Of a DNA stretch of 64,000 nt, positions 16,686 to 35,622 are shown one piece after another. The stretch covers positions 310,001-374,000 of the forward strand of contig CANLSF010000001.1 in the NCBI GenBank assembly GCA_947493695.1, given 5' to 3'. The notes under the pieces are model-generated. The model saw only the letters and a list, made by a program, of their open reading frames with translations, searched no databases and was not told the DNA's origin. The position numbers and the translations under genes are program-made. The stretch is from an uncultured Kiloniellaceae bacterium. GTDB lineage: Bacteria > Pseudomonadota > Alphaproteobacteria > Kiloniellales > Kiloniellaceae. Numbering within the stretch: the first letter of the stretch is position 1; each line of letters opens with the position of its first letter.

Positions 16686-16686
16686 C

Positions 16687-17559
16687 ATGGTTGATTTTCG
16701 ACACACATCAACGACTGCGATCAGTCGTTCCGGCAAGAAGCGCTCAGTGACTCCAACCGGTTTATCGAGACGAGAGTTGCTGCTTGCCGCATGCGCTTTT
16801 GTTGTACCGACGGTCACAATCACCGCCGTTTTTGGGTCCGACATTATCACCGATGCCGTTGAAAGCGTGATCCCCATCGGCCAGAAGACAATTCATATCT
16901 TGTTGACGGACCCAACAGACTTATTGGTCACAACCGCGCGTCAGAAAGCTGAGGTGCTGCGGATACTCAAAGAGGACCAGAAACGGCTCTATCGTCCTGG
17001 CGACCGGGTGCTTGTAGCGCGCCTGACAAAAACGCCCCATCGCCCGGATGAAGTAATTTTTGACGATGTAAGTCCGGGAAATGCTGACAGCGCGAATCCT
17101 GTCTTCGAAACGGCAAGCGAGCTGGAAAGAGCCTGGAGTAAGTTTGCGCCTGGATTTTATGCGGCTATCGAATCCGGACTCGACCCGATGAAACATCCCG
17201 AGCAGACACCTTTGTTCGAAGCCATCGAAGACCTCCACAGTTATGCCCTCCGTCAGATCGGGCCAGACGACAGGGTTCGCGTCTGCATAGTAAGCGACCT
17301 TCTCGTCCATGTTGATGGTGGATTGTCGATGTACCTATCGCCCGGTCACCGGCAACACCCATTGAGTCTCCACGGAAAGGCCAGCCTGGAGCGAAAAAAA
17401 ATGCCGAATACGAGGGTTGAATTTCTTGCCATCGAGCGTCGAGGGCTTCGCTCGCGGATGGGTCAAGACATGTTTGTGGCCCAAAGGGAAATTTCAGACT
17501 GGATGATGGAGTACTTTGAAGAGAGAACGCAAAACACGGTTGGAGTTACATGGCTATAG
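16687..17559 (+). CDS. Membrane-anchored vWA-like protein of unknown function
   Basis: The ATG at 16687 is preferred to an upstream TTG because GGGAGGA lies 7 nt before it. The roughly 290-residue product has a basic N-terminus and one hydrophobic segment near 32-52. That segment opens with SRRELLLAAC, which resembles a twin-arginine motif and even a lipobox, though the spacing is short for both. The rest has strand patterns like a von Willebrand A fold (KTIHILLTDPTDL; PLFEAIEDLHSYAL; VRVCIVSDLLVHVDGG). The canonical DxSxS is not intact. It is likely anchored with its domain in the periplasm. Confidence 0.75.
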   Translation: MVDFRHTSTTAISRSGKKRSVTPTGLSRRELLLAACAFVVPTVTITAVFGSDIITDAVESVIPIGQKTIHILLTDPTDLLVTTARQKAEVLRILKEDQKRLYRPGDRVLVARLTKTPHRPDEVIFDDVSPGNADSANPVFETASELERAWSKFAPGFYAAIESGLDPMKHPEQTPLFEAIEDLHSYALRQIGPDDRVRVCIVSDLLVHVDGGLSMYLSPGHRQHPLSLHGKASLERKKMPNTRVEFLAIERRGLRSRMGQDMFVAQREISDWMMEYFEERTQNTVGVTWL

Positions 17560-19654: not shown

Positions 19655-20653
19655 TCACTCAACCTCCCAGGTTCCGCCGTCGTGCAGCAGCGCTGAAAGC
19701 TCGTCCCGCGAGAGCGTGGTGAAGTGATTGCGGGCTTCCTGATCCGACCCATAATCGTTCACCGGATCGCAATAGAGCACACCCAGCGCCGTGGGCAGAT
19801 CGCCGCCTTCCATCGTCGAAAGCGCGCAGGCCAGCGCCCAGTTGGTTTCGTCGTGGATGCTTGCGAGCTTTTCAGCATCTCCACCGGCTTCGGTCAATTC
19901 CATCCGGCCGTTGCGGCTGTCGAAGACCAACCCCTTGTCGCGTTCCTTACCGAAGACCAGCGGCTCGCCATGGGCAACGCGGACCGTCTTTTCGAAGGAT
20001 TCCGCCTTGGTGGCCATCCCCGCCCAGACCGCATCGTTGTAAACAATGCAGTTCTGGAAAATCTCGACCAGGGACGCTCCCTTGTGCGCCTGCGCGCGGG
20101 TTAGAACCTCCGGCAGATGATCCAGCAAAGTATCCGCCGAACGGGCCACAAAACGCGCGCCTGCGCCCAGAGCCATGAGCGCCGCATTGACCGGACGATC
20201 CACCGAGCCACCCGGTGTCGAGGGCGAGCGGGTGCCGACAGACGAGGTCGGTGAATACTGGCCTTTGGTCAAGCCGTAGATCGCGTTGTTCAAGAGCAGC
20301 AGATTGAGGTCCATGTTCCGGCGCAGGGCATGAAGCAGGTGATTGCCGCCGATGGAGAGAAAGTCTCCGTCGCCGCCGACCACCCAAACATCCAGGTTCG
20401 GATTGGCCAGCTTGACCCCGGTCGCAACCGCGGGGGCGCGGCCATGGATCGTGTGGAAGCCGTAACTGTCCACATAGTAGGGAAAGCGCGCGGCACAGCC
20501 GATGCCCGAGACGAAAACCACCTCGTGCGGCGGACGGCCGATCTTGGCCAGAGTCGCGCGGACCGATTTCAGAATGGCGTAGTCGCCGCAGCCCGGGCAC
20601 CAGCGCACTTCCTGATCGGTGGTGAAGTCCTTCGCGGTCAATACCTGGTTCAT
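19655..20653 (-). CDS. korB: 2-oxoacid (2-oxoglutarate):ferredoxin oxidoreductase beta subunit
   Basis: The 332-residue beta subunit binds TPP and the single [4Fe-4S] cluster: WCPGCGDY gives Cys19 and Cys22, and a third Cys lies in SGIGCAARF. The TPP/Mg motif is VVGGDGDFLSIG with NNAIYGLTKGQYSPTS. With KorA it converts 2-oxoglutarate plus CoA to succinyl-CoA using ferredoxin. It overlaps the korA stop by 4 nt. No delta-type ferredoxin gene is adjacent. Confidence 0.92.
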   Translation of the reverse strand: MNQVLTAKDFTTDQEVRWCPGCGDYAILKSVRATLAKIGRPPHEVVFVSGIGCAARFPYYVDSYGFHTIHGRAPAVATGVKLANPNLDVWVVGGDGDFLSIGGNHLLHALRRNMDLNLLLLNNAIYGLTKGQYSPTSSVGTRSPSTPGGSVDRPVNAALMALGAGARFVARSADTLLDHLPEVLTRAQAHKGASLVEIFQNCIVYNDAVWAGMATKAESFEKTVRVAHGEPLVFGKERDKGLVFDSRNGRMELTEAGGDAEKLASIHDETNWALACALSTMEGGDLPTALGVLYCDPVNDYGSDQEARNHFTTLSRDELSALLHDGGTWEVE

Positions 20654-22542
20654 GACGCGCCTCCTTCGGTCTTATTGATCGCGGCCCTGATCGCCGCCTT
20701 GACGGTCGCGACCTTGAAGGGCTTTCCGGTCATCTGGTTGACACCTTCCGCCGGGATCAGGAACTCCGAACGCAGCAGCCGGCAAAGCTGACCAGAGTTC
20801 ATTTCCGCCACCAGCACATGGTCGAAGCCGCGCAACAGGTCTTCCAGTCCCGGTGCGAGGGGCGAAATGTGACGCAAATGGATATGCGCAACCTCTAGGC
20901 CCTCGTCGAGTAACTCCTTCACCGCCGCATTGAGCGCGCCGTAGGTGGAACCCCAGCCGACAATGGCGACCCGCCCGCGTTCCACGCCGCGCTCGACCTT
21001 GATCGGCGGTAACATCTCGGCGATCCGCGCGATCTTTTCGGTCCGCAGGTCGGTCATGGTCTGATGGTTGTCGGGGTCGTAGGAGATATGGCCGCTTCCA
21101 TCGGCCTTCTCGATGCCGCCGATACGATGCTGAAGCTCCGGTGTGCCCGGGCGGACCCAGGGCCGTGCGAGCGTTTTTTCATCGCGCGTGAAGGGCTGGA
21201 AGTTCTCCGGATCGACCCGGAAGTCAGGCGCGATATCGGGCAAGTCAGCCACATCAGGAATGCGCCAGGGCTCGGCGGCGTTAGCGATGTAGCCATCCGC
21301 CAGCACCATCACCGGCGTCATGTAACGGATCGCGATTGCCGCTGCATCCAGCATGGTCTGAAAACACTCCGCCGGGGTCGCGGGCGCCAGCACCGCGATG
21401 GGTGCTTCGCCGTGACGCCCGTAAAGCGCCATGGAGAGATCGGCCTGCTCGGCCTTGGTCGGCATGCCGGTGGAAGGTCCGGCGCGCTGCACATTGACCA
21501 CCACCAGCGGCAACTCAGTCGAAACCGCAAGACTCAAGGCTTCCGACTTCAGAGCGATGCCGGGACCCGAAGATCCGGTCACGCCGAGCGCGCCGCCATA
21601 GGACGCGCCGATGGCCGCCGTCGCCGCCGCGATTTCGTCCTCGGCCTGGAAGGTCACGATGCCTTTGCTGCGCAGGGCCGCCAAGGCATGCAGCAGGCCG
21701 GAGGCCGGTGTAATCGGATAGGAGCAGTAGGCGACCTTGATCCCGGCGCAACAGGCCGCCGCCGCCAGCCCCTTGGCCATAGCATCGATGCCGGTGATGC
21801 TGCGATAGGTGCCGGGCGCGAAGCTGGCTTCCAGCGGTTGCCCGACCACATCGCGGCCGATTTCCATGGTCTCGCCGAAGGCATGTCCGGCATTGAGCGC
21901 CGCCAGGTTCGCCGCCGCAACTTCGGGAATCCTGGCGAATTTCTCGGTAATCCACTTCTGTGTCTCGGCCCGCTTGCGCCCGAACATCCAGAAGGTCAGT
22001 CCCAGCGCCCAGAAATTCTTGGCCCGGTCGGCGACTTTCTTGCTGGCGCCGGTGTCCGCCACCGCTTCGCCGCAGCGTCGCGCGATATCGATCTTTAGAA
22101 CCTGATAGGTCGCGAGGGTATCGTCCTCCAGCGGGCTGACTTCATAGCCCGCCTTGGCCAGATTGCGCTTAGTGAAAGCCCCCTCATCGAGGATCACCAG
22201 ACCTCCGTCGCGCAGATCCGCCAGATTGGTTTTCAAGGCCGCCGGATTGAAGGAGATCAGCACATCGACTGCATCCCCCGGCGTCAGAACCTTCGGACCG
22301 CCGAATTGGATCTGAAAGGCCGAAACCCCGAACGTCGTCCCCACAGGGGCACGGATCTCGGCGGGAAAGTCCGGAAAGGTGATGAGATCATGACCGCTAA
22401 GGGCGGCGGATTTCGCAAACTCCGCGCCGAGAACCTGGACACCGTCACCGGAATCTCCGGCAAAACGGACAACGACCCGTTCGGGGGCCGCCTGATCATG
22501 GCTTCCCTGATCATCGATTGCGGCTGCGGCCTGACTACCCAT
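20650..22542 (-). CDS. korA: 2-oxoacid (2-oxoglutarate):ferredoxin oxidoreductase alpha subunit (gamma-alpha fusion)
   Basis: At 630 residues this is the fused type. The gamma domain occupies about 20-200 (VVVRFAGDSGDGVQVLGAEF), then the PYR-type alpha domain (CSYPITPASGLLHALA; FQAEDEIAAATAAIGASYGG), then the C-terminal transketolase-C domain (VAIVGWGSTYGALNAAVKEL). A GGAGG site precedes the ATG. It forms the cytoplasmic KorAB complex that can replace 2-oxoglutarate dehydrogenase in the TCA cycle at low oxygen. The 2-oxoglutarate assignment is by resemblance; pyruvate or branched-chain oxoacids are less likely. Confidence 0.9.
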   Translation of the reverse strand: MGSQAAAAIDDQGSHDQAAPERVVVRFAGDSGDGVQVLGAEFAKSAALSGHDLITFPDFPAEIRAPVGTTFGVSAFQIQFGGPKVLTPGDAVDVLISFNPAALKTNLADLRDGGLVILDEGAFTKRNLAKAGYEVSPLEDDTLATYQVLKIDIARRCGEAVADTGASKKVADRAKNFWALGLTFWMFGRKRAETQKWITEKFARIPEVAAANLAALNAGHAFGETMEIGRDVVGQPLEASFAPGTYRSITGIDAMAKGLAAAACCAGIKVAYCSYPITPASGLLHALAALRSKGIVTFQAEDEIAAATAAIGASYGGALGVTGSSGPGIALKSEALSLAVSTELPLVVVNVQRAGPSTGMPTKAEQADLSMALYGRHGEAPIAVLAPATPAECFQTMLDAAAIAIRYMTPVMVLADGYIANAAEPWRIPDVADLPDIAPDFRVDPENFQPFTRDEKTLARPWVRPGTPELQHRIGGIEKADGSGHISYDPDNHQTMTDLRTEKIARIAEMLPPIKVERGVERGRVAIVGWGSTYGALNAAVKELLDEGLEVAHIHLRHISPLAPGLEDLLRGFDHVLVAEMNSGQLCRLLRSEFLIPAEGVNQMTGKPFKVATVKAAIRAAINKTEGGAS

Positions 22543-23476: not shown

Positions 23477-23938
23477 TTAAGCGCCGTAGAGCTTGCGCAG
23501 CAAACGGATCAAGGTCGTGCGTTCCCGGATATTGAGGGGTTTGAGGGTTTCCCTGGAAATCTGCAAACCCAGGGGGATCGCGGCGCAAACCGCCTGCTCG
23601 CCGTTTTCGGTCAGCTCGACAAAGTGTTTGCGTCCGTCATCGGGATCGGGCCGCCTAAAGGTCAGGGAACGTGCGGTGAGCCTGTCGACCACCCCTTTGA
23701 TGGTCGCTACATCCATAGCCGTTTGCCGCCCCAGCTCATTCTGCGGCAACGGCCCTTTCTCATAAAGCTTTGCCAGCACAGCAAAGCGCGTCGGAGTCAG
23801 GTCCTCCGGCATGAGGTCAGCGAAGACGCTGCCGTGTTTCTGAGACGCGACCCGCAGGATAAATCCAATCTGATCCTCCAGGAGGTAGTCAGACAGCGCG
23901 GCATCTTCGTCAGTCGTTCCTGCAGCCTCGTTTTTCAT
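23477..23938 (-). CDS. MarR family transcriptional regulator
   Basis: This 153-residue winged-helix protein has the MarR core: PTRFAVLAKLYEKGPLPQNE, recognition region GRQTAMDVATIKGVVDRL, and wing RRPDPDDGRKHFVELTE. MarR proteins respond to phenolics or oxidants and usually repress nearby genes. It begins only 19 nt after the dhaK stop in the same direction, so it may be the last gene of the large importer/kinase operon, or have its own promoter inside dhaK. Confidence 0.9.
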   Translation of the reverse strand: MKNEAAGTTDEDAALSDYLLEDQIGFILRVASQKHGSVFADLMPEDLTPTRFAVLAKLYEKGPLPQNELGRQTAMDVATIKGVVDRLTARSLTFRRPDPDDGRKHFVELTENGEQAVCAAIPLGLQISRETLKPLNIRERTTLIRLLRKLYGA

Positions 23939-23957: not shown

Positions 23958-24950
23958 TTAGACGCCCCACCTCAAGGCCGCCGTATGGACCGGGGCATCC
24001 CAGTAGCCGAGCATCTCGTCATCCACCTTGGTCAGTGTGATCGAGCAGCCCGCCATGTCGAGTGAGGTGCAATAGTCGCCAACCAGAGACCGCGCAATGG
24101 TCAGGCCGCGTTCCTCACAAATCCTGCGCGCAGCATCGTAGACCAGGTAGAGCTCCATCAGCGGCGTTCCGCCCATGCCATTGACCAGCAGCAGCACTTG
24201 ATCGCCCGATGACAGCCCGCCATCCTTGCAGATGGCCTCGATCATCTCGGCGGCCAGCGCGTCGGCCTCCAGCAGCTTCACTCTGCGCCGTCCGGGCTCG
24301 CCGTGAATACCGACCCCCATCTCCATCTCGTCTTCGGCCAGCTCGAAGGTCGGCTTCCCGGCGGCTGGCACCGTGCAACTCGTCAGGGCCACACCCATGG
24401 TGCCGCTCGCTGCATTCACCCGATCCCCCAGGGCCTTGCAGGTTGCCAGGTCCGCACCCGCTTCCGCCGCTGCGCCGACGATCTTCTCGACAATCACCGT
24501 GCCCGCGACCCCGCGCCGGCCTTGCGTAAAAAGCGAGTCTTCCACCGCAACATCGTCGTTGGTCAGCACCGTGTCCTGATCGCCCTCATGCATCTCCGCC
24601 GCCATCTCGAAATTCATGACGTCGCCGGAATAATTCTTAACGATGAAAAGCACACCCGCCCCCGCATCGACAGCCTGTGCCGCCGCGAGCATCTGGTCGG
24701 GCGTGGAGGAGGTGAAAACCTCGCCCGGACAGGCCGCATCCAGCATACCCTGGCCGACAAAGCCCGCGTGCAGCGGCTCATGCCCCGAGCCGCCGCCGGA
24801 AATCAGCGCAACCTTGCCTTTGGGTGTGCCGCCCGCGCGCTGAACGAATTTCGGCTCCCAGTTCACCGAAACAATATCGCTGTGCGCCAGTCCGAAACCC
24901 CGCAGACTATCGGTCAGGGCACTATCGACGGAATTCATCAGCTTTTTCAT
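23958..24950 (-). CDS. dhaK: PEP-dependent dihydroxyacetone kinase, substrate-binding subunit DhaK
   Basis: I start at the ATG at 24950 (MKKLMNSVDSAL): GGAGGA lies 9 nt upstream, whereas the in-frame ATG at 24959 is too close to it. The 330-residue DhaK carries GGGSGHEPLHAGFVGQG and, near residue 216, the His of GIHGEPG that binds dihydroxyacetone as a hemiaminal. With DhaL it transfers phosphate to the ketose. It is the twelfth gene of an operon that begins with an ABC binding protein. DhaK paralogues also act on other trioses or tetroses, so dihydroxyacetone is likely but not proven. Confidence 0.92.
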   Translation of the reverse strand: MKKLMNSVDSALTDSLRGFGLAHSDIVSVNWEPKFVQRAGGTPKGKVALISGGGSGHEPLHAGFVGQGMLDAACPGEVFTSSTPDQMLAAAQAVDAGAGVLFIVKNYSGDVMNFEMAAEMHEGDQDTVLTNDDVAVEDSLFTQGRRGVAGTVIVEKIVGAAAEAGADLATCKALGDRVNAASGTMGVALTSCTVPAAGKPTFELAEDEMEMGVGIHGEPGRRRVKLLEADALAAEMIEAICKDGGLSSGDQVLLLVNGMGGTPLMELYLVYDAARRICEERGLTIARSLVGDYCTSLDMAGCSITLTKVDDEMLGYWDAPVHTAALRWGV

Positions 24951-24992
24951 TTTTTGCATTCCTCCCTACAGGGCAAAAATCAGCCGCCGCTA

Positions 24993-25460
24993 TCAACCGC
25001 CCTCACGCGCAAGAGCGATCATTTTAGCGGCGATGTCCTCAATGGCCTCGGCCAGACGTTCCTGTTTCCCAGGATCTTCGAAGTCCGGCAGTTCGATCAT
25101 GACAATGCGCTTCCCGGAAACCTCCTCGGATTCCAGCGCAGCGGCCTGGTTGGGGTGCGCGATCCGGTAAGCGTCCAGGAAGCCGGCACGCTCCTCCGGC
25201 GAGAAATGGCAGATCTTGAAAATCGAGGCGACATGTGGGGCAGGCAACGGCACACGTAACGCCGGATTGGTGATCTGCGAGACGAAACTCTTATGGGTTC
25301 CCAGCGCCTTGGCAATGCGCTGACGGGTCCCGGAGGGCCGCCGGTCGATGAACTCCCGCAGGATCTGTTTGTAGGTCGCAACGGTCTGGTCCGCTGCAGG
25401 TTTCGCCCCCCCGCTATTGCGGTTGGCTGGCCGGGGACTGGCGGGCTTCGAATCAGCCAT
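24993..25460 (-). CDS. Small helix-turn-helix protein embedded in the dha operon
   Basis: About 155 residues from the ATG at 25460, which overlaps the EI stop by 8 nt (ATGGCTGA). After a Pro/Ser/Ala-rich 25-residue tail, residues about 28-60 look like a helix-turn-helix (RQRIAKALGTHKSFVSQITN). A helical region with SPEERAGFLDAYRIAHP follows, then a strand-helix unit (IVMIELPDFEDPGKQERL). I do not know a named family. It could be an autoregulator of the operon or a sensor of PTS phosphorylation state. Confidence 0.75.
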   Translation of the reverse strand: MADSKPASPRPANRNSGGAKPAADQTVATYKQILREFIDRRPSGTRQRIAKALGTHKSFVSQITNPALRVPLPAPHVASIFKICHFSPEERAGFLDAYRIAHPNQAAALESEEVSGKRIVMIELPDFEDPGKQERLAEAIEDIAAKMIALAREGG

Positions 25461-27057
25461 ACCGCCGCACCGCAAGCTTGACCCGTCCTACCTGCGCAGG
25501 CGCAACCGAAAGCCGCCGCAAACCGCAATCCAGCAGATCGGGTATCCTTTCGGGATCCGACGCCATGTCGCCGCAGAGGCTAACCTCGACGCCCATCCGC
25601 GCCGCAGCCTCAACCGTCCGGCGGATCAGTTCCAGAACTGCCGGATTCTTTGGATTGGCCAGCCTGGTCACCGCGGGATTATCCCGCGCACAGGCCGTGG
25701 TGTATTGAATAAGGTCATTGGAGCCGATCGAAAAGAAGTCCACCTTGAAACGCTCCGCCGTCAAGGCAGCAGCAGGTACCTCGACCATCATACCAATTTG
25801 CGGGCGGGCGTGTGCAACCCCTTCGGCGGCAAGTTCGGATAGGACAGCATTAAGCAGCGCCCGAACCGCGTCCACTTCTTCCGGCACGGTCACCATGGGG
25901 ATCATAATCTTGAGCGGACCAAGCGCTGCAGCTCTGGCGAGCGCACGCAACTGCTGCTTCAGGACCTCAGGCGTTATGAGAGACAGGCGCACACCGCGCA
26001 GCCCCAGAAAAGGGTTACTCTCGTCATCGACAGTCACCCCGGGGATCGGCTTATCGCCCCCTGCATCGAGCGTTCGGATAATCACCGGACGTCCCTCGGC
26101 CCAGGTCACGAGATCACGGTAGACTTCGTACTGTTTTTGCGCGTCAGGAAGCATCCCGTCGCTGAAGAGAAATTCCGTCCGCGTCAGACCGATTCCATCA
26201 CACTGCGCAACCGGCACCTCAGCCAGAACCCGGGGATCGTCCGCGTTGATCAGGATCTCGACGTGCTCGCCGCGCGCCGTGGCTGCAGCCTCGCCAATCA
26301 AAGACCGCGCCGCCGCGTCGTCAGCCTTGCGGGCGTGCAAACGGCCGGCGATTTCCTCAAGGGTCCCGGGTGTCGGTCCGAGGATCAATCGTCCGCTCTC
26401 AGCATCCAGCACAGCCGGGCAGGCCTCCTGCAGTGTCTCAAGCGCATCTTCCAATCCGACCACAAGCGGAATACCGCGGGCGCGGGCTAGAATGGCAACA
26501 TGGCTGGTCGGGCTGCCGCCGCAAAGCGCTGCACCTCGGTAAACGCTCCAATCCAGTTCCAGAAACCGCGAAGGTGTCAGGTCACGGGCAACTATTATGT
26601 CGCCATCCAGTTCGATCCGCGCAGGCTCCTTACCCTGCAGAACGGAGAGAACCCGGTCTCTCAGGTCAAGAAGGTCGTCGGCGCGCGCCCGGAAATAGTC
26701 GTCCTCGCCCTCGCGGTACTCGACGATCTCGCCGTCAATGACTCTCATCCAGGCCTGATCCGCAGGTAGCCCGGTCTCGACAGCGGCATAAACCGGCGCC
26801 AGCAGATCCTCATCTTCGAGAAGCGCGGTTTGAAACTCCAGAATCTCTGCACCCATCTCGTCCTGGGACTGGGCCAGCTTGTCGAGCTGCTCCGAGGCAT
26901 GCGCAATCGCCTGCACGAGCACGCCACGTTCTTCCCCGGGCGACCCCGCAGCCCGATGCACATGCGCTGACGAGACCAATGGCACGGCACGGCCCACAAC
27001 AAGGCCGTCCGCTGCGCAGACGCCTTCAAGAATGCGTTCGCCCGAAGTCTCAGTCAT
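25453..27057 (-). CDS. Phosphoenolpyruvate-protein phosphotransferase (EI) dedicated to Dha kinase
   Basis: From the ATG at 27057 the protein is about 534 residues, near the usual EI length. The phospho-His is in GGSPTSHVAILARARG near residue 186. The PEP-binding barrel shows TRTEFLFSDGMLP, RTLDAGGDKP, and the proton-donor Cys in SLCGDMASDPE. It takes phosphate from PEP and passes it to the adjacent HPr. In E. coli this module is fused into DhaM; here it is a separate gene in the same operon. Confidence 0.92.
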   Translation of the reverse strand: MTETSGERILEGVCAADGLVVGRAVPLVSSAHVHRAAGSPGEERGVLVQAIAHASEQLDKLAQSQDEMGAEILEFQTALLEDEDLLAPVYAAVETGLPADQAWMRVIDGEIVEYREGEDDYFRARADDLLDLRDRVLSVLQGKEPARIELDGDIIVARDLTPSRFLELDWSVYRGAALCGGSPTSHVAILARARGIPLVVGLEDALETLQEACPAVLDAESGRLILGPTPGTLEEIAGRLHARKADDAAARSLIGEAAATARGEHVEILINADDPRVLAEVPVAQCDGIGLTRTEFLFSDGMLPDAQKQYEVYRDLVTWAEGRPVIIRTLDAGGDKPIPGVTVDDESNPFLGLRGVRLSLITPEVLKQQLRALARAAALGPLKIMIPMVTVPEEVDAVRALLNAVLSELAAEGVAHARPQIGMMVEVPAAALTAERFKVDFFSIGSNDLIQYTTACARDNPAVTRLANPKNPAVLELIRRTVEAAARMGVEVSLCGDMASDPERIPDLLDCGLRRLSVAPAQVGRVKLAVRRYG

Positions 27058-27084
27058 GGTCCTCATCACACATCACGATCACAT

Positions 27085-27399
27085 CTACTCGGCATCAAAG
27101 TCGCGCTCGATCAAAGCAACCAGGGCATTGACCGCCTCGCTGGCCTGCGCCCCCTCTGCCCGAACGAAGAGAATTTCTCCACTGCCGGCCTTCAGCTTCA
27201 TCACCGCATTCGGCGATTTGGCATTGACCCACTTACCCTCTTCACCCGCCCGAATCTCGACCGTCGCCTCGTGTGTTTTAGCAAGCTTGGTCAACTTAAC
27301 CGCAGGACGGGCATGCAGTCCCGTTGGATCCAGAATCTTTGCCTGTCCGCTGGCGGCAGGTTGATTGGGATCAGCACTTTCCGCAGGTGCATCGGTCAT
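27085..27399 (-). CDS. HPr-like phosphocarrier protein of the Dha phosphorelay
   Basis: The 104-residue protein has a 20-residue acidic, Pro/Ala-rich N-terminal extension and then a full HPr domain: the phospho-His is His29 in DPTGLHARPAVKL. The usual Ser46-region motif reads VNAKSPNAVMKLKAGSG, in which the regulatory Ser is preserved in position. It relays phosphate from EI to the DhaM EIIA domain. It overlaps the dhaM stop by 4 nt. Confidence 0.9.
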   Translation of the reverse strand: MTDAPAESADPNQPAASGQAKILDPTGLHARPAVKLTKLAKTHEATVEIRAGEEGKWVNAKSPNAVMKLKAGSGEILFVRAEGAQASEAVNALVALIERDFDAE

Positions 27400-27785
27400 G
27401 ACAGAAATTCCTCCGCGGTCGCGCGCACCTCATCCAGACTTCCGCCGCCCGCGGCTTCCGTGGCCGCCATCACCGCGCCTTCAACAATCGGTGCGTTGCA
27501 GATCACGATCGCGTTCTGGCGCTCTTCATCCATCATTTCGATCGCCATTTCGCTATTGGTTTCCGCGCCGCCGAGGTCCACCAGAACCGCCACGCCCTGG
27601 GCGCCGAAGACCGAATCAATCGCGTTGTGAATAGTGGCCACGTCGGTTCCCAGGCCGCCTTCGGCATTGCCACCGCAATAGGCAACCCTGACTTCATCAC
27701 CGACCATCTCCCGCACCATATCCGCCGTACCCTTGGCGACGTTCGGCGAGTGGGACACGATCACGATGCCAACAAAATTCGACAT
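27396..27785 (-). CDS. dhaM: Dha kinase phosphotransfer subunit DhaM (EIIA-Man-like)
   Basis: Starting at 27785 (MSNFVGIVIVSHSP), the 129-residue protein is only the EIIA domain, with the phospho-His at residue 12 in VSHSPNVAKGTADM. GGLGTDVATIHNAI and VAVLVDLGGAETNSE are typical of DhaM. It phosphorylates the ADP bound in DhaL. E. coli DhaM has EIIA, HPr and EI in one chain; this operon has the three as separate consecutive genes. Confidence 0.92.
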   Translation of the reverse strand: MSNFVGIVIVSHSPNVAKGTADMVREMVGDEVRVAYCGGNAEGGLGTDVATIHNAIDSVFGAQGVAVLVDLGGAETNSEMAIEMMDEERQNAIVICNAPIVEGAVMAATEAAGGGSLDEVRATAEEFLS

Positions 27786-27789
27786 AGAT

Positions 27790-28398
27790 TTACTTACCTT
27801 CGATGATGTCACAAACGGCGTGGATCAGCAGTGCCGAGGAGCGCGCACCGGGGTCGAGATGACCCATCGAGCGTTCGCCCAGAAAGGAGGCCCGCCCCTT
27901 TGTCGCCTTCATATCCTTGGTCGATGCCAGGCCCGCATCAGCCGTGGCCCGGACCGCCTCCACGTCAAGGGAATCAGCCGTGGAAAGCAAAGCGGCGACC
28001 GGCAGCAGGACTTCCAGCATGGTCTTCTCGCCACCCTGGGACTTACCCCGTTTCATCACCGCCTCGACACCGGCCTGAAAAGCGCCTGCAAAATCACCGA
28101 GCGAACCCGGTTCTTCCGGCATCGCCTTGCCCATGGCCATCAGCAGCGAGCCATAAAGCGGACCCGACGCCCCGCCAACCGACATCACCAGAGTCATCCC
28201 GGCTTTCTCGAGCGCCTTGCCGTCGGGCAGTTCAGCTATGGTGTCAGCAGCGGCGGCTATGGCTTCAAAGCCACGCTTCATGTTGATCCCGTGATCGCCG
28301 TCGCCGATCGCCTGATCCAGGTCGGTGAGCTCCTCCGCATGGGCTAAAATCTCCGCATGCGTGCGGCTGATCACTGCCTTGATTGTCTCAGGTTCCAT
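27790..28398 (-). CDS. dhaL: Dihydroxyacetone kinase ADP-binding subunit DhaL
   Basis: The ATG at 28398 follows a GGAGG site. The 202-residue helical-barrel protein has the Mg-ADP-binding DLDQAIGDGDHGINM near residues 27-40 and GGASGPLYGSLLMAMG. It keeps ADP permanently bound, receives phosphate from DhaM and passes it to the sugar on DhaK. Its start overlaps the upstream ABC ATPase stop by 11 nt, linking kinase and importer translationally. Confidence 0.93.
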   Translation of the reverse strand: MEPETIKAVISRTHAEILAHAEELTDLDQAIGDGDHGINMKRGFEAIAAAADTIAELPDGKALEKAGMTLVMSVGGASGPLYGSLLMAMGKAMPEEPGSLGDFAGAFQAGVEAVMKRGKSQGGEKTMLEVLLPVAALLSTADSLDVEAVRATADAGLASTKDMKATKGRASFLGERSMGHLDPGARSSALLIHAVCDIIEGK

Positions 28399-29443
28399 AA
28401 ACCGCCTCCTCACTCACGACCGTCTTGACCGGATCGACCCGCTGACCGTCCACATCGAAAAACAACACCGCACCCTCTCGTACGCCGATGCCAATCTCCG
28501 CGCCTTCTTCCAGGCTGGCAGCATCGCCGAGCAGGGCATGCAGGTGTCGCCCCGCCAGTTCAAGCAGAATCACCGTTTCGACTCCCAGGTGCTCGACATT
28601 GACCACCTTCGCGACCGCGCCCTCGCTCTGATTCAGAACAATGTCTTCGGGCCGGATCCCCAACGTGGCCGCCGACGGCGGCACCGATGGCAGATCCAAC
28701 ATCCCCACCGGCATCAGATTGATCTGGGGACTGCCGAGGCGCTGCGCCACATAGACACTTGCGGGCGCCTCATAGACTTCACGCGGTTCACCGACCTGCA
28801 CCAATCTGCCCTCATCGAGCACGCCGATCCGGTCCGCCAGTGTCATAGCCTCAAGCTGGTCATGGGTCACGTAGACGATTGTCGCACCCAGGTCCCGCTG
28901 AATGCGTTTCAGTTCAACCCGCAGGTCCTCCCGCAGCTTTGCATCCAGTGAGGACAAGGGCTCATCCATCAGAAAAACCGTTGGATTGCGCACCAGCGCC
29001 CGGCCAATCGCGACACGCTGCATTTCTCCGCCGGAGAGCGCCGTCGCCGGATTCTCAAGCTTGTGATCGATGCGCAGCAGCTCGGCAATCTCCTGCACCC
29101 GCGTCTTGATCTCTTCCTTACGCAGATTCTGACCTGGTGCCTTCAAAGGAAACGCCAGATTTTCAAAGACGCTGTAATGCGGATACAGCGAATACTGCTG
29201 GAACACGAAAGCCACGTTGCGCGCCGAGGTCGGTGTCTCCGTCACATCCAGGCCGTCTATTAAAACGCTCCCTGCCTCCGGCTTTTCCAGTCCCGCAATC
29301 AGCCGCAGCGTTGTGGTCTTACCGGCTCCGGTCGGCCCCAGCAGCACCACGAACTCACCGTCGTGGACGGTCAGGTCGAGTTCCGCAACCGCCTGCACAC
29401 TGCCAAAGCTTTTGGATACGGCCTTCAGGGCAATTTCAGCCAT
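28388..29443 (-). CDS. Carbohydrate-type ABC transporter ATP-binding protein (UgpC/MalK-like), copy 1
   Basis: I use the ATG at 29443, which has a GGGAGG site; it gives about 351 residues. Walker A is GPTGAGKTT, signature LSGGEMQRVAIGRAL, Walker B VFLMDEPLSSLDA, followed by the C-terminal TOBE/OB region (LGIRPEDIVLNQ). Two different MalK-type ATPases in tandem imply a heterodimeric motor, as in the GlpST glycerol importer of rhizobia. It overlaps dhaL downstream. Confidence 0.92.
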   Translation of the reverse strand: MAEIALKAVSKSFGSVQAVAELDLTVHDGEFVVLLGPTGAGKTTTLRLIAGLEKPEAGSVLIDGLDVTETPTSARNVAFVFQQYSLYPHYSVFENLAFPLKAPGQNLRKEEIKTRVQEIAELLRIDHKLENPATALSGGEMQRVAIGRALVRNPTVFLMDEPLSSLDAKLREDLRVELKRIQRDLGATIVYVTHDQLEAMTLADRIGVLDEGRLVQVGEPREVYEAPASVYVAQRLGSPQINLMPVGMLDLPSVPPSAATLGIRPEDIVLNQSEGAVAKVVNVEHLGVETVILLELAGRHLHALLGDAASLEEGAEIGIGVREGAVLFFDVDGQRVDPVKTVVSEEAVYGT

Positions 29444-30539
29444 GCACGCCTCCCGTGATGAGCGCACTCGCAACCGCCTTGTCGGTCCGGGAATCGAACA
29501 CCACGATCTTTTCAGAGTCGAAGTTCAGACCGACGGTCTCACCATCATTGACCCGCACCGTGTTGGGCGCGCGTACCCGAAGGCGGCCTGAGTCCGTATC
29601 GACCGTAATCAGCTGTCGGGTGCCCATGTATTCGACCGCGAAGACACGCCCGCGCAGCGCACCCTGGTCTGAGATGTGAATGTGTTCCGGCCGCGCGCCC
29701 AGAATGGCTTCAGACGACGTCAGGTCTTCGTGCAGACGCGGAATGGCGATGCGGGATCCGCGTACCTGCACAGCTTCGCTACCAGCATTCAGCCCGCCTT
29801 CGCCTGTGATGAAGTTCATGGAGGGCGAGCCGACGAAGCCCGCGACAAAGCGTGTTGCCGGACGGGCGTAGACCTCCGAGGGCGGCCCGATCTGCAGCAC
29901 CTCCGCATTGTTCATGATGCAGATGCGGTCGGCCATGGACATGGCTTCGATCTGATCATGGGTGACATAAACCGTGGTCGCCTTGACCCGCAGATGCAGC
30001 AGACGCAGTTCCTCGCACATCAGCTCGCGGAACTGAGCGTCCAGCGCCCCCAGTGGCTCGTCCATCAGAAAGGCTTTGGCCCGGCGCACCACGGCCCGGC
30101 CCAGCGCCACCCGCTGCCGGTCGCCACTCGACAGACCGCCCACCGGTGACTCCAGCAGATGATCGATCTGCAGCATGCGCGCGACCTCTTCGGTGCGTTC
30201 GCGCACCTCCTTGCGGGGCCGGCCCTCCATGCGCAGCGGGAAGGAAATGTTCTTGCGCACGTTCATGTGGGGATAGAGCGCAAAAAGCTGGAACACAAAG
30301 GCGATATCCCGCTCGCCGCCGCGCCGGGTCGTCACATCCTCCCCGTCCAGAAAGATCCGGCCCGAGGTCGGCAGTTCCAGCCCGGCGATCATGCGCAGGG
30401 TCGTGGTCTTGCCGCAGCCGGACGGGCCCAGCATCACGAAGAACTCTCCGTCCTTCACCGTGAAGGAAGAGTCCCGTACGGCGGTAAAGTCGCCGAAGGT
30501 CTTGTGCAGGTTTTCAATTCTAATCTCGGCCACGTGCAC
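29436..30539 (-). CDS. Carbohydrate-type ABC transporter ATP-binding protein, copy 2
   Basis: The 367-residue ATPase starts with GTG at 30539, immediately after the stop of the small membrane protein gene; a second GTG is two codons later. Walker A is GPSGCGKTT, the signature is LSSGDRQRVALGRAV (Ser and Asp replace the usual Gly and Glu), Walker B AFLMDEPLGALDA, and a TOBE region (LGARPEHIHISD) follows. It probably pairs with the adjacent ATPase. Confidence 0.91.
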   Translation of the reverse strand: MHVAEIRIENLHKTFGDFTAVRDSSFTVKDGEFFVMLGPSGCGKTTTLRMIAGLELPTSGRIFLDGEDVTTRRGGERDIAFVFQLFALYPHMNVRKNISFPLRMEGRPRKEVRERTEEVARMLQIDHLLESPVGGLSSGDRQRVALGRAVVRRAKAFLMDEPLGALDAQFRELMCEELRLLHLRVKATTVYVTHDQIEAMSMADRICIMNNAEVLQIGPPSEVYARPATRFVAGFVGSPSMNFITGEGGLNAGSEAVQVRGSRIAIPRLHEDLTSSEAILGARPEHIHISDQGALRGRVFAVEYMGTRQLITVDTDSGRLRVRAPNTVRVNDGETVGLNFDSEKIVVFDSRTDKAVASALITGGVHG

Positions 30540-30749
30540 CTACTCCGGAAAATGACTGACGATGACGAAGCCGACCGTACCGGTCAGGATCACCGCGAAG
30601 GAATAGCTGAAGAGATCGATCGAGAAGGGCTGCATCAGCATGAAGATGCCCAGCGCAATCAGGAAGGTCGCAAAGTTCTCCCAGGGTCCGCGCCGGAAGA
30701 AGCGGCTTAGTCCCGAGGGTCCGTTTCGATGTTCGCTCTGCAGGCTCAT
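30540..30749 (-). CDS. Small two-segment membrane protein of the importer operon
   Basis: A 69-residue protein with a basic N-terminus and two hydrophobic segments (ATFLIALGIFMLMQP and FAVILTGTVGFVIVSHF). It overlaps the permease stop as ATGA and ends exactly where the next gene's GTG begins, so it is translated in the operon. Small membrane proteins occur at the same place in some polyol ABC operons, but I do not recognise this family. It may be an accessory subunit of the transporter. Confidence 0.8.
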   Translation of the reverse strand: MSLQSEHRNGPSGLSRFFRRGPWENFATFLIALGIFMLMQPFSIDLFSYSFAVILTGTVGFVIVSHFPE

Positions 30750-31720
30750 TTGCGCACCGCTCCAAAGGTGATGCCCCGCAAAAGCTGATTGCGCAGGAGC
30801 ACGGTGAAAAACACAATCGGCAGGAGAAAGAGCGTCGTTCCGGCAGCGACCGCAGGCCAGTCCAGGCCGCCCTCGCCAATAATGATCGGAATAAAGGGTG
30901 GCGCTGTCTGCGCGTTGCCGCTGGTCAGCAGCAGGGCGAAGGCATATTCGTTCCAGGCAAAGATCAGGCAGAAAATCGCCGTCGCCGCGATGCCCGAACG
31001 CGCCTGGGGCAGCACCACTTTCCAGAAGGCCTGCAGCCGCGTGTAACCGTCCACCACCGCGGCCTCTTCGTACTCGCGCGGGATCTCATCCATGAAACCC
31101 TTCAGCAGCCAGACCGAGAGCGAAACGTTCACGGCGGTGTAGAGCAGGATCATACCCAGCGCTGTATCCGACAGCCCAAGCGTCCGGTACATCAGGTAGA
31201 TTGGAATGGCCACCGCGATGGGCGGCATCATGCGCGTCGAGAGAATGAAAAACAGCAGGTCATCCTTCAGCGGCACCTTGAAGCGCGAGAAACCGTAGGC
31301 CGCGAGCGTACCAAGAAAAACCGCCAGAAAGGTCGAGCCGAAACCGATCACCACCGAATTGAAGTAGCGGTCGAGAAAGCGCGACGGTCCGACGATGACC
31401 ATGTTGCGTTTACGCACAATCTCGTCGTACCAGGTCTCGGCCGGGCCCAGGTTTTCGATGTATTCCTCGGTCTGGCGCGAGCGGGTGGTGAAGAGGTTCA
31501 CATAGCCTTCCATGCTCGGCTCGAAGATCACCTTCGGCGGATAGGAAATGGAATCCGGTGGCGACTTGAGACTGGTCGCCAGAATCCAGACCAGCGGGAT
31601 CAGGGTGATGAGCGCATAGGCGACCACCACCAGTCCGGCGAGCCACTTGCCCCGGCTGGAACTCTCGACCACCGAATGGGCAGTTGTCCCGATGGTACCT
31701 GTTGTCGCGGCGGCGCTCAT
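30746..31720 (-). CDS. Carbohydrate-type ABC transporter permease (MalG-like)
   Basis: A 324-residue permease with about six membrane segments and the coupling motif EAAVVDGYTRLQAFWKVVLP. An unusually long periplasmic loop of about 75 residues between the first two segments contains ENLGPAETWYDEIVRKR. It ends RGITFGAVRK, typical of MalG-type subunits. It overlaps its neighbours by 4 nt on both sides. Confidence 0.92.
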   Translation of the reverse strand: MSAAATTGTIGTTAHSVVESSSRGKWLAGLVVVAYALITLIPLVWILATSLKSPPDSISYPPKVIFEPSMEGYVNLFTTRSRQTEEYIENLGPAETWYDEIVRKRNMVIVGPSRFLDRYFNSVVIGFGSTFLAVFLGTLAAYGFSRFKVPLKDDLLFFILSTRMMPPIAVAIPIYLMYRTLGLSDTALGMILLYTAVNVSLSVWLLKGFMDEIPREYEEAAVVDGYTRLQAFWKVVLPQARSGIAATAIFCLIFAWNEYAFALLLTSGNAQTAPPFIPIIIGEGGLDWPAVAAGTTLFLLPIVFFTVLLRNQLLRGITFGAVRK

Positions 31721-32667
31721 TGCTTCACCTTATTCAAAGCTTTGACATAGATGTTGCCCAGGCCGAAGACCGTGACGAAAAGAATCACCGCGAAGGCAGA
31801 GGAATAGCCGGTCCGCCATTTCTCGAAGGCCTCGCGTTTGAGATTGATCGAGGCGACCTCGGTGATCGAGCCCGGCCCGCCGGACGTCAGTTCCACCACC
31901 ATGTCGAACATCTTGAAATTTTCGATCCCGCGGAACAGCACCGCCAGCATCAGGAAGGGCATGATCCGGGGTAACGTGATGTACCAGAACTTCTGCCAGG
32001 CATTGGCCCGGTCGATTTCGGCGGCTTCGTAAAGGTACTCCGGGATCGAACGCAGACCCGCCAGACAGAGCAGCATGATGTAGGGCGTCCACATCCAGGT
32101 ATCGACGATTATGATCGACCAGGGCGCCAGATCGACCGAGCCGATCATGTCGACCGGCCCGACCGCGACGAAGAGATTGATGATGTAGCTGAAGATACCG
32201 GTCTGGGGCTGATAGAGATAGGTCCAGAAGGTGCCCACCACCGCCGGCGAGAGCATCATCGGGATCAGGATCACCGTGGTCCAGAAACTCGCGCCCTTGA
32301 AATTGCGGTTGATCAGCAACGCCAGACTCAAGCCGATGACAACCTGGATCACCATGGTCCAGACCACGAAGTGCGCGGTCGCCTGGAGGTAGCCCCAGAT
32401 ATCCTCACTGCCCAGCAGACGCTCGTAGTTGCGCGTGCCCACCCATTCGATTGGCCGCCCGGGACGGTTGGCCCGGTAGTTGGTGAAGGAAAGATAGACC
32501 GTCCAGATCAACGGAAAGATGTTGATCGCGAGCAGCAGCAGGATCGTCGGCGAGATAAAGAGCCAGGCAATTGCTGTATCGGAAAGCCCGCGCACCTTCT
32601 GCACGACCACGCCGGGCGTGGCCCTTGCCACGCGATCCGTGAGGCTATCGCTGGGTCGATCCGTCAT
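31717..32667 (-). CDS. Carbohydrate-type ABC transporter permease (MalF-like)
   Basis: I start at the ATG at 32667 (MTDRPSDSLTDRV), with a GGA-type site upstream; the in-frame ATG at 32715 has none. The roughly 316-residue protein has six predicted membrane segments and the EAA loop YEAAEIDRANAWQKFWYITLP. It pairs with the MalG-like permease to form the inner-membrane channel. Confidence 0.92.
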   Translation of the reverse strand: MTDRPSDSLTDRVARATPGVVVQKVRGLSDTAIAWLFISPTILLLLAINIFPLIWTVYLSFTNYRANRPGRPIEWVGTRNYERLLGSEDIWGYLQATAHFVVWTMVIQVVIGLSLALLINRNFKGASFWTTVILIPMMLSPAVVGTFWTYLYQPQTGIFSYIINLFVAVGPVDMIGSVDLAPWSIIIVDTWMWTPYIMLLCLAGLRSIPEYLYEAAEIDRANAWQKFWYITLPRIMPFLMLAVLFRGIENFKMFDMVVELTSGGPGSITEVASINLKREAFEKWRTGYSSAFAVILFVTVFGLGNIYVKALNKVKQ

Positions 32668-32803
32668 GAGCTGCTTCCAGAAGACATAGAGATTCCCTGG
32701 ACCGGCCGGACGCAATGCCCGGCCGATCGAGTTTAGCGCCTCGTGCCTGATCGTTTCATTTCTGTTTCAAAATGAAGCGTGAATCAGCCTCGACACTTGA
32801 GAG

Positions 32804-32823
32804 GAGAGTGCCATTGCACTCTC
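32804..32823 (-). promoter_or_regulatory. Intercistronic stem-loop after the carbohydrate binding-protein gene
   Basis: GAGAGTGC and GCACTCTC form a perfect 8-bp stem with a 4-nt loop, 13 nt past the binding-protein stop and 137 nt before the first permease start. No U-tract follows on the leftward strand, so it likely protects the upstream mRNA segment or partly attenuates the rest of the operon. Confidence 0.75.
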
Positions 32824-32836
32824 GTCAAAATCAGGA

Positions 32837-34171
32837 CTAGAGCTTACCGTCGTCTTCGAAGACTTCGGTCCAGTCGACGACCAGCTTGTCGAGCGCTTCC
32901 TGGGCCGTTCCCTGATCGGCGACCACATAGTCATGCACCCGCTTCTGCATGGATTGCAGCAACTCGGCGTAGGTCGGCTCCTGCCAGAAGTCCTTCACCC
33001 CGTCCATCGCCTTCAGGAAGTCCGCAGCGAAGGGCGCGGTGTTCGGGAAGTTCGGATCGTTGAGCACGTCCACGTGGCAGGAATAGCCGCCCAGGGACCA
33101 CCACTTCTTTTGTACATCGGACTTGGCGAACCACTTGATGTACTCCAGCGCCATGTCCTTCTTGTCGGAATAGGCCACCACCGAGATGCCCTGTCCGCCC
33201 AATGTGGAGGCCGCGACCTTCTGGGAGGGATTGACGAAGAAACCCGATTTGTCGCCGCCCACGTCTTCATCCTTGGCGATGCCCGGGAAGAAGGCAAACC
33301 AGTTCATCTGCATGGCGACCTGACCGGACTTATAGGCGTCCAGATTGGCAACCATATAGGCGTCCGAATGGCCCGGAGGCGTGCAGCAGTCATAGAGGGA
33401 TTTATAGAATTCCAGGGCCTCGGCGGCGTGCGGTGAATTCACGTAACCGGGCATGTCGTAGGGCTTATCCGGGTTTTCGTATTCAAAGCCCCAGGAATAC
33501 ATGGCCGCGGTCACACCCATGGTGATGCCTTCGGAGCCACGCTCGGTATAGATCCCCAGGCCGTAGACTTTTTTGCCGTCGATCTCGCGACCCTGGAAGA
33601 ACTCTCCGATGTGTTTCACCTCGGTCCAGTTCTTGGGCACTTCAAGCTCATGACCATACTTCGCCTTGAATTCTTCGCGCAGTTCCGGACGGGCGAACCA
33701 GTCCTTGCGGTAGACCCAACCCAGCGCGTCGCCCATGGCAGGCAGCGCCCAATAGTTCGGCGTGCCCTTCGGCCAGGTCGAGTAGGCATGGACGGTCGCG
33801 GGCGCGAAATCGTCCATGGAGATGCCTTCTTTTTCGAAGAAGTCGTTCAGCTTGATATAGTGACCGTATGTTGCCGAACCGCCGATCCACTGGCTGTCGC
33901 CGATCAGCAGATCACAGAGTTTGCCACCTGAATTCAGTTCGTTGATGAAGCGGTCCGCAAAGTTGGTCCAGGGCACGAACTCGTAGTTCATGGCGATCCC
34001 GGTTTCGGCGGTAAAGTCTTTCCCCAACTGGGCCAGGGCATTGGCCGGGTCCCAGGCTGCCCAGCAGAGGGTCAGCTCCTTCTCCTGCGCCTGAACTTCC
34101 TGGGTGCTCATTGCCGTCACGGCCGTCACGCTCAGCGCAGCCGCGGCCAGACAGGCTCCAAATCTCCGCAT
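32837..34171 (-). CDS. ABC transporter extracellular solute-binding protein (carbohydrate type)
   Basis: The ATG at 34171 has a GGGAGG site and opens a Sec signal peptide (MRRFGACLAAAALSVTAVTA); further upstream codons are not coding-like. The roughly 444-residue protein is a family 1 (MalE-like) periplasmic receptor (LTLCWAAWDPANALAQLG; TPNYWALPAMGDALGWVYRK). Three or four aromatic residues per motif suggest a sugar or polyol pocket. It is shorter than the rhizobial glycerol receptor GlpV. Lying in one operon with a dihydroxyacetone kinase, it may bind dihydroxyacetone, glycerol or a related triose; that is inference. Confidence 0.9.
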   Translation of the reverse strand: MRRFGACLAAAALSVTAVTAMSTQEVQAQEKELTLCWAAWDPANALAQLGKDFTAETGIAMNYEFVPWTNFADRFINELNSGGKLCDLLIGDSQWIGGSATYGHYIKLNDFFEKEGISMDDFAPATVHAYSTWPKGTPNYWALPAMGDALGWVYRKDWFARPELREEFKAKYGHELEVPKNWTEVKHIGEFFQGREIDGKKVYGLGIYTERGSEGITMGVTAAMYSWGFEYENPDKPYDMPGYVNSPHAAEALEFYKSLYDCCTPPGHSDAYMVANLDAYKSGQVAMQMNWFAFFPGIAKDEDVGGDKSGFFVNPSQKVAASTLGGQGISVVAYSDKKDMALEYIKWFAKSDVQKKWWSLGGYSCHVDVLNDPNFPNTAPFAADFLKAMDGVKDFWQEPTYAELLQSMQKRVHDYVVADQGTAQEALDKLVVDWTEVFEDDGKL

Positions 34172-34647
34172 GTTTTCCTCCCTTGGAGACCGGCTGTTTT
34201 TCTCCCGCTTCGGAGGAAACCCAGGATCGGTCTCTCGTTGATATTGTTTGGGGGGCAATTTTACTGAACTTGCGATGTCTCTTGCGTCGCAGGCCGACGG
34301 CCCCTTCTTGCCGCATTCTGTGCGTCGGCGAGAAAACACTAAACTTATCACTAAACTTTTGTCAAACATGTTCGATCCTGCACCGCAGCATGATTTTGCA
34401 AAAATTCCATTAAATGCGCTAAATTACAGATAGAATCCGGTTGTATCGTGGTAAATTTCCTTTGTTTAGACCTTTGCCTTTTTTAGGCATCAGGCACGAA
34501 TCAGTTTAGTGATTAGACAAAAAGTTTAGGATTCGATCTTGCGTCGCGGAACCAGCACGAAAATGCCGATCTTCATGTGCAGCGTTTACTGCGCGATGAA
34601 TTTCGACCATGGTTCCATCCTAGAATCACCAGTAAGGACTCCCCGGC
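34172..34647. other. Divergent promoter region of the importer/kinase operon and the dehydratase gene
   Basis: About 475 bp without a gene. The centre, 34320-34535, is strongly AT-rich and contains the inverted repeat motifs listed separately. No FNR or CRP box with high match was seen. Confidence 0.5.
34348..34529. repeat. Inverted operator-like motifs in the importer/kinase promoter
   Basis: TCACTAAACTTTTGTC at 34348-34363 recurs in inverted orientation around 34504-34529: CTAAACTTTT is exactly reversed at 34520-34529 and TCACTAAAC at 34504-34512. A further CTAAACTTAT occurs at 34339. Repeated short motifs of this kind in a sugar-operon promoter suggest binding sites for a dedicated regulator. 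Confidence 0.5.
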
Positions 34648-35622
34648 ATGACCACCTCGCCCGTCACCCTCGACGCCATTCAAGGCGCCTTTGCGCGCAT
34701 CAAAGACAGGGTGCGGCGCACGCCACTGCTCAGAACCCGTTTCATTCGCGAGGAGCCGGCGCGCAATCCCATGATGGTCAAGCTGGAATGCCTGCAGGTC
34801 ACCGGCTCCTTCAAGCCGCGCGGTGCCATGAATGCAGCCCTGCAACTCAGCGAAAATGAATTAAAACGCGGTATCGTCACCGCATCCGGCGGCAACCACG
34901 GTCTGGGCGTCGCCTATGCCGGTTGGTCACTGGGCACGCAGGCGGTCATCTACCTGCCGAGTTCAACCCCTGCGGCCAAAGCGGAAAAACTCCGGGCCTG
35001 GGGTGCAGAGGTCATTATCGAGGGCGCGGTCTATGACGACGCCAACGAAGCGGCCCTGGCGCGGGCGGAGCGCGACGGCCTGACCTACATTCACGCCTTC
35101 GCAGATCCGGCGGTGATCGCCGGGCAAGGCACCATGGCCGTGGAGATGCTCAAGCAATCACCGGAGCTGGATGCCATCGTCGTGGCCATCGGCGGCGGCG
35201 GCCTGATCTCGGGCATCGCCACCGCGGCCAAGGCCATCAAACCGGAGATCAAGATCATCGGCGTCGAGGCTGTCGGCGCCCCGACACTCTATGAAAGCGT
35301 GAAGGCGGACAAACTGGTCACCCTCTCTGAAATCACCACCAAGGCCGGCACCCTCGCCCCACGCCGCAGCGCAGAGCCGAACTTCGATATCATCCGCCAG
35401 CACGTCGACGACATTGTTCTGGTGACTGACGAGGAGATGCGTATGGCGGCGCAATGGCTCTGGTTCGAAATGGGTGTCGGTGCGGAACTCGCGGGCGCAG
35501 CCTCCCTCGCCGCCGTCCAGGCGGGCAAGCTGGCCGCCAGCAAAGTGGATCTCTCCGACGACGCCCTGATCGCCACCATCGCCTGCGGCTCGGGCTCGGA
35601 CGGCATCAGCCTTCCGGCGTAA
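34648..35622 (+). CDS. PLP-dependent threonine/serine dehydratase-like enzyme
   Basis: A 324-residue fold-type II PLP enzyme. The Schiff-base Lys is in TGSFKPRGAMNAAL near residue 54; the phosphate-binding glycine loop is VAIGGGGLISGIA; the C-terminal TIACGSGSDG contacts the pyridine nitrogen. It lacks the regulatory ACT domain of biosynthetic IlvA, so it is a catabolic dehydratase or racemase of threonine, serine or 3-hydroxyaspartate type. The next gene starts 1 nt after its stop. Confidence 0.9.
   Translation: MTTSPVTLDAIQGAFARIKDRVRRTPLLRTRFIREEPARNPMMVKLECLQVTGSFKPRGAMNAALQLSENELKRGIVTASGGNHGLGVAYAGWSLGTQAVIYLPSSTPAAKAEKLRAWGAEVIIEGAVYDDANEAALARAERDGLTYIHAFADPAVIAGQGTMAVEMLKQSPELDAIVVAIGGGGLISGIATAAKAIKPEIKIIGVEAVGAPTLYESVKADKLVTLSEITTKAGTLAPRRSAEPNFDIIRQHVDDIVLVTDEEMRMAAQWLWFEMGVGAELAGAASLAAVQAGKLAASKVDLSDDALIATIACGSGSDGISLPA

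Follow-up and report, generated by a model that had tools for sequence, protein, structure and literature searches.

The Escherichia coli DhaKLM system, in which a dihydroxyacetone kinase is driven by the phosphotransferase system (PTS), and the single-chain ATP-dependent kinase DAK, which joins the domains Dak1 and Dak2, are among the known systems closest to the operon considered here. The substrate of the E. coli enzyme DhaK is dihydroxyacetone, for the uptake of which bacteria mostly rely on diffusion or facilitators. E. coli DhaM is one chain of 472 amino acids (aa), the regulator of the system is DhaR, and no importer is found among its annotated neighbours. In Haloquadratum a dihydroxyacetone PTS is described which is phosphoenolpyruvate (PEP)-dependent and linked to uptake, and no ATP binding cassette (ABC) importer is named in the available text of the accounts (PMC5023246, PMC5496347). 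According to the accessible part of one of them (PMC5023246), some bacteria excrete dihydroxyacetone, and respiration in brines is stimulated by it, so that it would be reasonable for a cell to scavenge it actively. None of the open-licence texts consulted names an ABC importer for this compound. The stretch analysed here, called the window, comprises 64,000 nucleotides of an uncultured Kiloniellaceae bacterium (GCA_947493695.1, contig CANLSF010000001.1, positions 310,001 to 374,000). Unlike the E. coli system, its operon of twelve minus-strand genes at positions 23958-34171 contains both an ABC importer and a PTS-driven dihydroxyacetone kinase. On balance this operon probably serves to scavenge dihydroxyacetone or, with lower probability, a closely related short ketose.

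The gene list as such is already on record. In a microarray of 2016 on Bradyrhizobium diazoefficiens USDA110, mutation of blr7984 increased the expression of all twelve genes blr3566-blr3577 by 4.2- to 24.3-fold, and the order given in the consulted part of the paper is binding protein, two permeases, a small hypothetical protein, two ATPases, DhaL, EIIA, HPr, EI (Enzyme I), a hypothetical protein and DhaK (PMC5017801). This is the twelve-gene order of the window, orthology being taken from gene order and annotation; in that same part the cluster is interpreted as ABC and PTS sugar uptake. The gene blr3566 is also listed among nodule genes in the accessible text of another study (PMC8632152). 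For Mesorhizobium loti and Bradyrhizobium japonicum, operons which combine dihydroxyacetone kinase genes with EI and HPr encoded separately, as in the window, were described in 2008, and in the available portion of this paper the word "ABC" occurs 0 times (PMC2405797). As far as seen, an importer with exchangeable kinase modules and a PTS-tied helix-turn-helix (HTH) protein has apparently not been spelled out before.

All parts of a carbohydrate ABC importer were found in the window, namely a binding protein (SBP_bac_1), the permeases (BPD_transp_1) and ATPases with a TOBE domain. The kinase resembles E. coli DhaKLM and differs from single-chain DAK in that Dak1 and Dak2 are on separate chains (see the table) and are accompanied by a PEP relay. 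G57, H60, K108, D113 and H219 of the window's DhaK align with G53, H56, K104, D109 and H218 of E. coli DhaK, and the same five E. coli positions are kept in all 17 other Dak1 domains compared. In DhaL, D28, D33 and D35 align with E. coli D30, D35 and D37, while the histidine of DhaM, H29 of HPr and H189 of EI align with H9, H169 and H430 of E. coli DhaM, respectively. We take the aligned positions of the five proteins to be catalytic, pocket or phospho-histidine sites. The EI part of E. coli DhaM aligns with the window's EI over 182 columns only. EI itself has the N-terminal (PF05524), the mobile (PF00391) and the PEP-binding domain (PF02896); with this domain and the aligned phospho-histidines the PEP relay is present in full, as the earlier note on this DNA had claimed. 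It may plausibly be private to the operon, although another EIIA-Man and additional EI-type proteins are encoded in the genome.

In the mechanism proposed here the binding protein would capture the ligand in the periplasm, and the permeases together with the two MalK-type ATPases would import it. DhaK would then bind the ligand and DhaL would hand a phosphoryl group to it, DhaL being recharged from PEP via EI, HPr and DhaM, all of which are encoded in the operon. The product would be dihydroxyacetone phosphate, entering central metabolism, and the small HTH protein would act as a regulator that senses the state of the DhaM/DhaL/DhaK relay. Ligand, flux direction and the task of the HTH protein are predictions, whereas gene content and order, the conserved residues, the linkage of importer and kinase, the exchange of kinase modules and the tie of the HTH gene to DhaM are observed.

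The association of importer and kinase was followed in two samples which have four importer genomes in common (39 importer genomes together). In the class sample the importer is present in 18 of 289 genomes (binding protein at E <= 1e-120), and in 18/18 Dak1 lies less than 10 kb away on the same contig; Dak1 occurs at all in 29 of the 289. In the phylum sample 26 of 398 genomes match the binding protein at E <= 1e-100, 25 of them with at least 65 % identity. Dak1 lies less than 10 kb from the importer in 25/25 of the latter and occurs at all in 67 of the 398. The Dak1 search scored up to 5 or 7 candidates per genome, and one of two kinases in G571 (L113) was missed. The genomes in these counts are not independent of each other, and hypergeometric values were not taken as proof. 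Six paralogous importers (L108, L109, L111, L121-L123), whose binding proteins are 44-45 % identical and of which five are second copies in the same genomes, have the same build as the window's importer, small protein included. Linkage is found in 0/6 of them: DhaK, DhaL, DhaM, HPr, EI, the HTH protein and the single-chain kinase gave no match at E <= 1e-3 within 14-18 kb. In 36 aligned relatives the binding protein is 68-97 % identical to that of the window, which is consistent with one ligand.

The earlier note held that importer and kinase belong together, and named a lack of co-occurrence in other genomes as a possible refutation. This did not materialise, given the 18/18 and 25/25 linked importers, the 0/6 among the paralogues and the joint induction of the B. 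diazoefficiens cluster with its matching order; together the data suggest that the importer feeds the kinase. That both are mere neighbours by common descent, without a functional link, is hardly credible: the kinase set does occur without the importer (L116, L117, L120), but besides the linkage counts and the co-induction such a reading has against it the short overlaps between the genes and the different donor modules which stand at the same place.

For the kinase modules, loci were typed by BLAST rules, type A being defined by DhaM or EI without a fused kinase. The close relatives are the best 80 of 211, a sample leaning toward the window's own type; for 66 of the 80 the sequence downstream of the binding protein extends over 9 kb or more, and of the 14 with less, 13 are untypable. 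Another 17 loci were hand-picked, partly to represent other kinase types, and two repeats (L104 of L071, L114 of L021) were removed from the 79 typed loci and from the tree. Among the 66 loci 64 have kinase genes downstream and two divergently upstream (L037, L070). Type A, the PTS set of the window, makes up 55 of them, type B (single-chain ATP-type kinase alone) one, type C (ATP-type kinase and PTS set) four and type D (DhaL and DhaK alone) four. The gene order, for which the earlier note had proposed a search in other genomes, was recovered completely in 43/55 window-type loci, where the twelve genes agree with the window in both order and strand. In the remaining 12 of these, six are without one gene in the available stretch (DhaK in L013; EI in L041, L046 and L051; HTH in L065 and L066), while DhaK is inverted in five and relocated in one. 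Type B was found on annotated plasmids of Ruegeria, Alloyangia and Rhizobium acidisoli, and type C on one of Phyllobacterium. A quick tree built from the binding protein requires no fewer than 11 changes of the type label, and the kinase modules have thus been exchanged repeatedly.

Locus typing found no PTS genes near type B and D loci, and the single-chain DAK of type B takes the same place beside the same importer. The view that the PTS relay is an essential partner of the importer was therefore abandoned, as this importer is accompanied elsewhere by an ATP-type kinase or a PTS-free DhaL-DhaK pair. Since an ATP-type kinase can replace the PTS set, the constant would be the Dak substrate and not the donor. 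Two type D genomes of 1.4 Mb (L098 and L099; 99 and 94 % complete) gave no match to EIIA-Man or the EI C-terminal domain, whereas the other five of seven genomes tested have both; DhaL-DhaK of L098 and L099 thus cannot use a PTS relay. The DhaL motif differs accordingly between the types: GGASG was found in 58/58 motifs from loci that belong to none of types B, C and D, likewise in 2/2 in C, and GGSSG in 7/7 found in B and in 7/8 in D, L098 and L099 included. The pattern matched nothing in 15 of 72 loci grouped with type A (which include partial and untyped loci), in 1/8 B and in 5/7 C loci. L100 is the one exception in type D, and its genome has EIIA-Man and EI elsewhere; L110, also of type D, carries GGSSG although its genome has both elsewhere, too. 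We infer that the change from GGASG to GGSSG would let DhaL exchange ATP.

It is quite possible, though we would not call it probable, that these loci represent a dihydroxyacetone importer lineage of proteobacteria, reaching down to genomes of 1.4 Mb. In this lineage the kinase would have been swapped several times between PEP relay, ATP and both, the PTS-free DhaL would have been retooled for ATP, and the HTH protein would be a PTS-responsive regulator lost with the relay. A spread beyond proteobacteria is not claimed. The "Anaerolineae" bin L026 is near-identical to the alphaproteobacterial L018 (branches of 0.003) and is probably misbinned.

The substrate of the kinase is the best guess for the ligand, since the Dak fold is the constant companion of the importer whatever the donor. 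The PTS-type DhaK scores above the DhaK equivalog cut-off (TIGR02363), and dihydroxyacetone appears the most likely ligand. In Hahella (L037) a gene similar to class 1 fructose-bisphosphatase (15811-16851) lies at the usual kinase position and a single-chain kinase is located divergently upstream; this gene behind the importer was counted for dihydroxyacetone. A number of observations weigh against this ligand. Among binding proteins of solved structure, the nearest ones mostly hold di- and oligosaccharides, an odd size for a C3 ligand. Reading the ligand from such structural neighbours, 5iai, 5ci5 and 4rya not counted, was set aside as not decisive. A PF01261 isomerase and a Gfo/Idh oxidoreductase are near 15 of the 79 typed loci, and L069 has a ketose 3-epimerase-like PF01261 gene (15723-16568) between ATPase 2 and DhaL. 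Pair and epimerase hint at a larger sugar, a polyol or a C4 ketose. Finally, the ATP-type kinase of the type B locus L067 remains below the glycerone kinase cut-off (489.6 vs 574.95).

Dak-family kinases for erythrulose and apulose exist. The importer might carry a different Dak-family substrate, for example D- or L-erythrulose or glyceraldehyde, which the kinase would phosphorylate. We consider this unlikely but worth keeping in mind: the L069 epimerase, the isomerase and dehydrogenase genes and the score of the L067 kinase speak for it, but the PTS-type DhaK lies above its cut-off with the E. coli residues kept, and most operons, that of the window included, are without an enzyme for a C4 phosphate.

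The PF01261 and Gfo/Idh genes may form a linked sugar pathway. They were seen beside the importer in L024, L027, L031, L036, L039, L094 and L098-L100, some with a LacI regulator, LacI being scored anywhere in the available sequence of each locus, the length of which varies. A larger sugar, polyol or glycoside could accordingly be imported, from which a dehydrogenase and an isomerase or aldolase would yield dihydroxyacetone to be trapped by the kinase. The MalE-type binding protein with its oligosaccharide-holding neighbours fits such a route, as do the pair and its LacI regulators. We nevertheless rate it as rather improbable, because the needed enzyme should travel as strictly as the kinase, and 64 of the 79 typed loci are without such a pair nearby while a Dak-family kinase is always there. 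This objection is tempered by the possibility that the pair lies elsewhere; in the window's genome a PF01261-like gene is located next to a different importer (L107, judged by eye).

Two MalK-type ATPases, two permeases and a small membrane protein are also the build of the glycerol ABC importer GlpSTPQUV. In the corresponding reading glycerol would be imported and oxidised by a dehydrogenase to dihydroxyacetone before phosphorylation. In L098, a locus of type D, an iron-containing alcohol dehydrogenase (PF00465; 13484-14647) is encoded convergently about 1.2 kb behind DhaK; it could serve this step but reached no NCBIfam cut-off. Against glycerol stands a separate locus in the window's genome with a glycerol-3-phosphate dehydrogenase (798.7 bits, cut-off 360), DUF2160, a two-ATPase importer and a regulator of the DeoR family that narrowly misses the GlpR cut-off. 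The binding protein of this locus shares 29 % identity with that of the window over part of its length, and parts of the locus are 29-36 % identical. The one DUF2160 match of the genome lies outside the operon, and the window's small protein gave none. Neither glycerol-3-phosphate dehydrogenase nor glycerol kinase was found among the scanned genes, which comprise the operon itself, two genes ahead of it, and the genes for MarR and the oxidoreductase that follow. In view of the separate locus glycerol was set aside as ligand, and a glycerol importer is very improbable here. The earlier proposal of an importer for dihydroxyacetone, glycerol or a related triose is therefore retained as far as the tie to the kinase is concerned, which the linkage supports, but not for glycerol.

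The HTH protein gave no Pfam or NCBIfam match at E <= 0.001, either to XRE / lambda-repressor-like regulators or to any other family. With up to 13 candidates scored per genome, its gene was found in 10 of 11 genomes of the class sample which have DhaM above the cut-off and in 0 of the 278 others. It is missing from 16/16 non-PTS loci, and in G043 (L116) it lies behind DhaM in a DhaK-DhaL-DhaM cluster with no importer. The HTH gene follows DhaM, not the importer. A role as regulator of the importer was rejected in favour of the DhaM relay, considering its absence from the 16 non-PTS loci and its presence in the importer-free G043; from this association we propose the protein as a PTS-linked regulator. 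The proposal is weakened by the small number of six independent switches behind the association (sign test p 0.031-0.0625) and by two DhaK-DhaL-DhaM sets with no HTH match, in G170 (fused DhaM-HPr-EI) and in G094 (DhaM below the cut-off). If the ligand is confirmed, the HTH gene would be a new testable regulator tied to the PTS, and the natural donor swaps beside one importer would allow a clean test of why PEP or ATP is spent by a cell.

Open reading frame (ORF) and family scans bore out the twelve genes and their order as first listed. The statement that most of them are joined by overlaps of 4-11 nt holds only just: with the chosen start codons six of the 11 junctions overlap (4, 4, 8, 11, 4 and 8 nt) and five are gaps (169, 0, 4, 18 and 33 nt). 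For the binding protein the best start is at 34171, ahead of a signal-peptide-like stretch, the ORF itself opening at 34369. The small membrane protein has no Pfam (E <= 0.001) or NCBIfam match and is present in all 79 typed loci; an ORF with a TTG start at 30520-30879 is in a different frame.

Genes of the importer-kinase operon of the window, with bit scores and cut-offs where given
Feature	Position	Strand	Family matches and remarks
Binding protein, extracellular solute-binding, MalE-type, 444 aa	32837..34171	-	SBP_bac_1
ABC permease A	31717..32667	-	PF00528 (BPD_transp_1); ORF opens 32715
ABC permease B	30746..31720	-	PF00528 (BPD_transp_1)
Small membrane protein, 69 aa	30540..30749	-	membrane nature judged by eye
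MalK-type ATPase 1	29436..30539	-	PF00005, PF08402, PF17912
MalK-type ATPase 2	28388..29443	-	PF00005, PF08402
DhaL, nucleotide-carrying subunit	27790..28398	-	TIGR02365, 221.7 bits (cut-off 138.3)
DhaM, EIIA-Man domain only	27396..27785	-	TIGR02364, 139.8 bits (cut-off 98.25)
HPr phosphocarrier	27085..27399	-	TIGR01003, 60.9 bits (cut-off 47.9)
EI	25453..27066	-	TIGR01417, 376.2 bits (cut-off 341.7); PF05524, PF00391, PF02896
Small HTH protein, unnamed family	24993..25460	-	proposed PTS-linked regulator
DhaK, substrate-binding kinase subunit	23958..24959	-	TIGR02363, 483.3 bits (cut-off 406.25)

Directly behind DhaK, at a distance of 19 nt and on the same strand, a MarR-type regulator is encoded (23477-23938). 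Among the 80 loci it is clustered only with L002 and L003 and is thus placed outside the conserved operon. Ahead of the binding protein a divergent PALP-family gene (34648-35622), similar to threonine/serine dehydratases, is clustered only with L002-L004. Further behind the operon lies a two-gene 2-oxoacid:acceptor oxidoreductase (19655-22542) with its alpha subunit at 20650-22542 and its beta subunit at 19655-20653.

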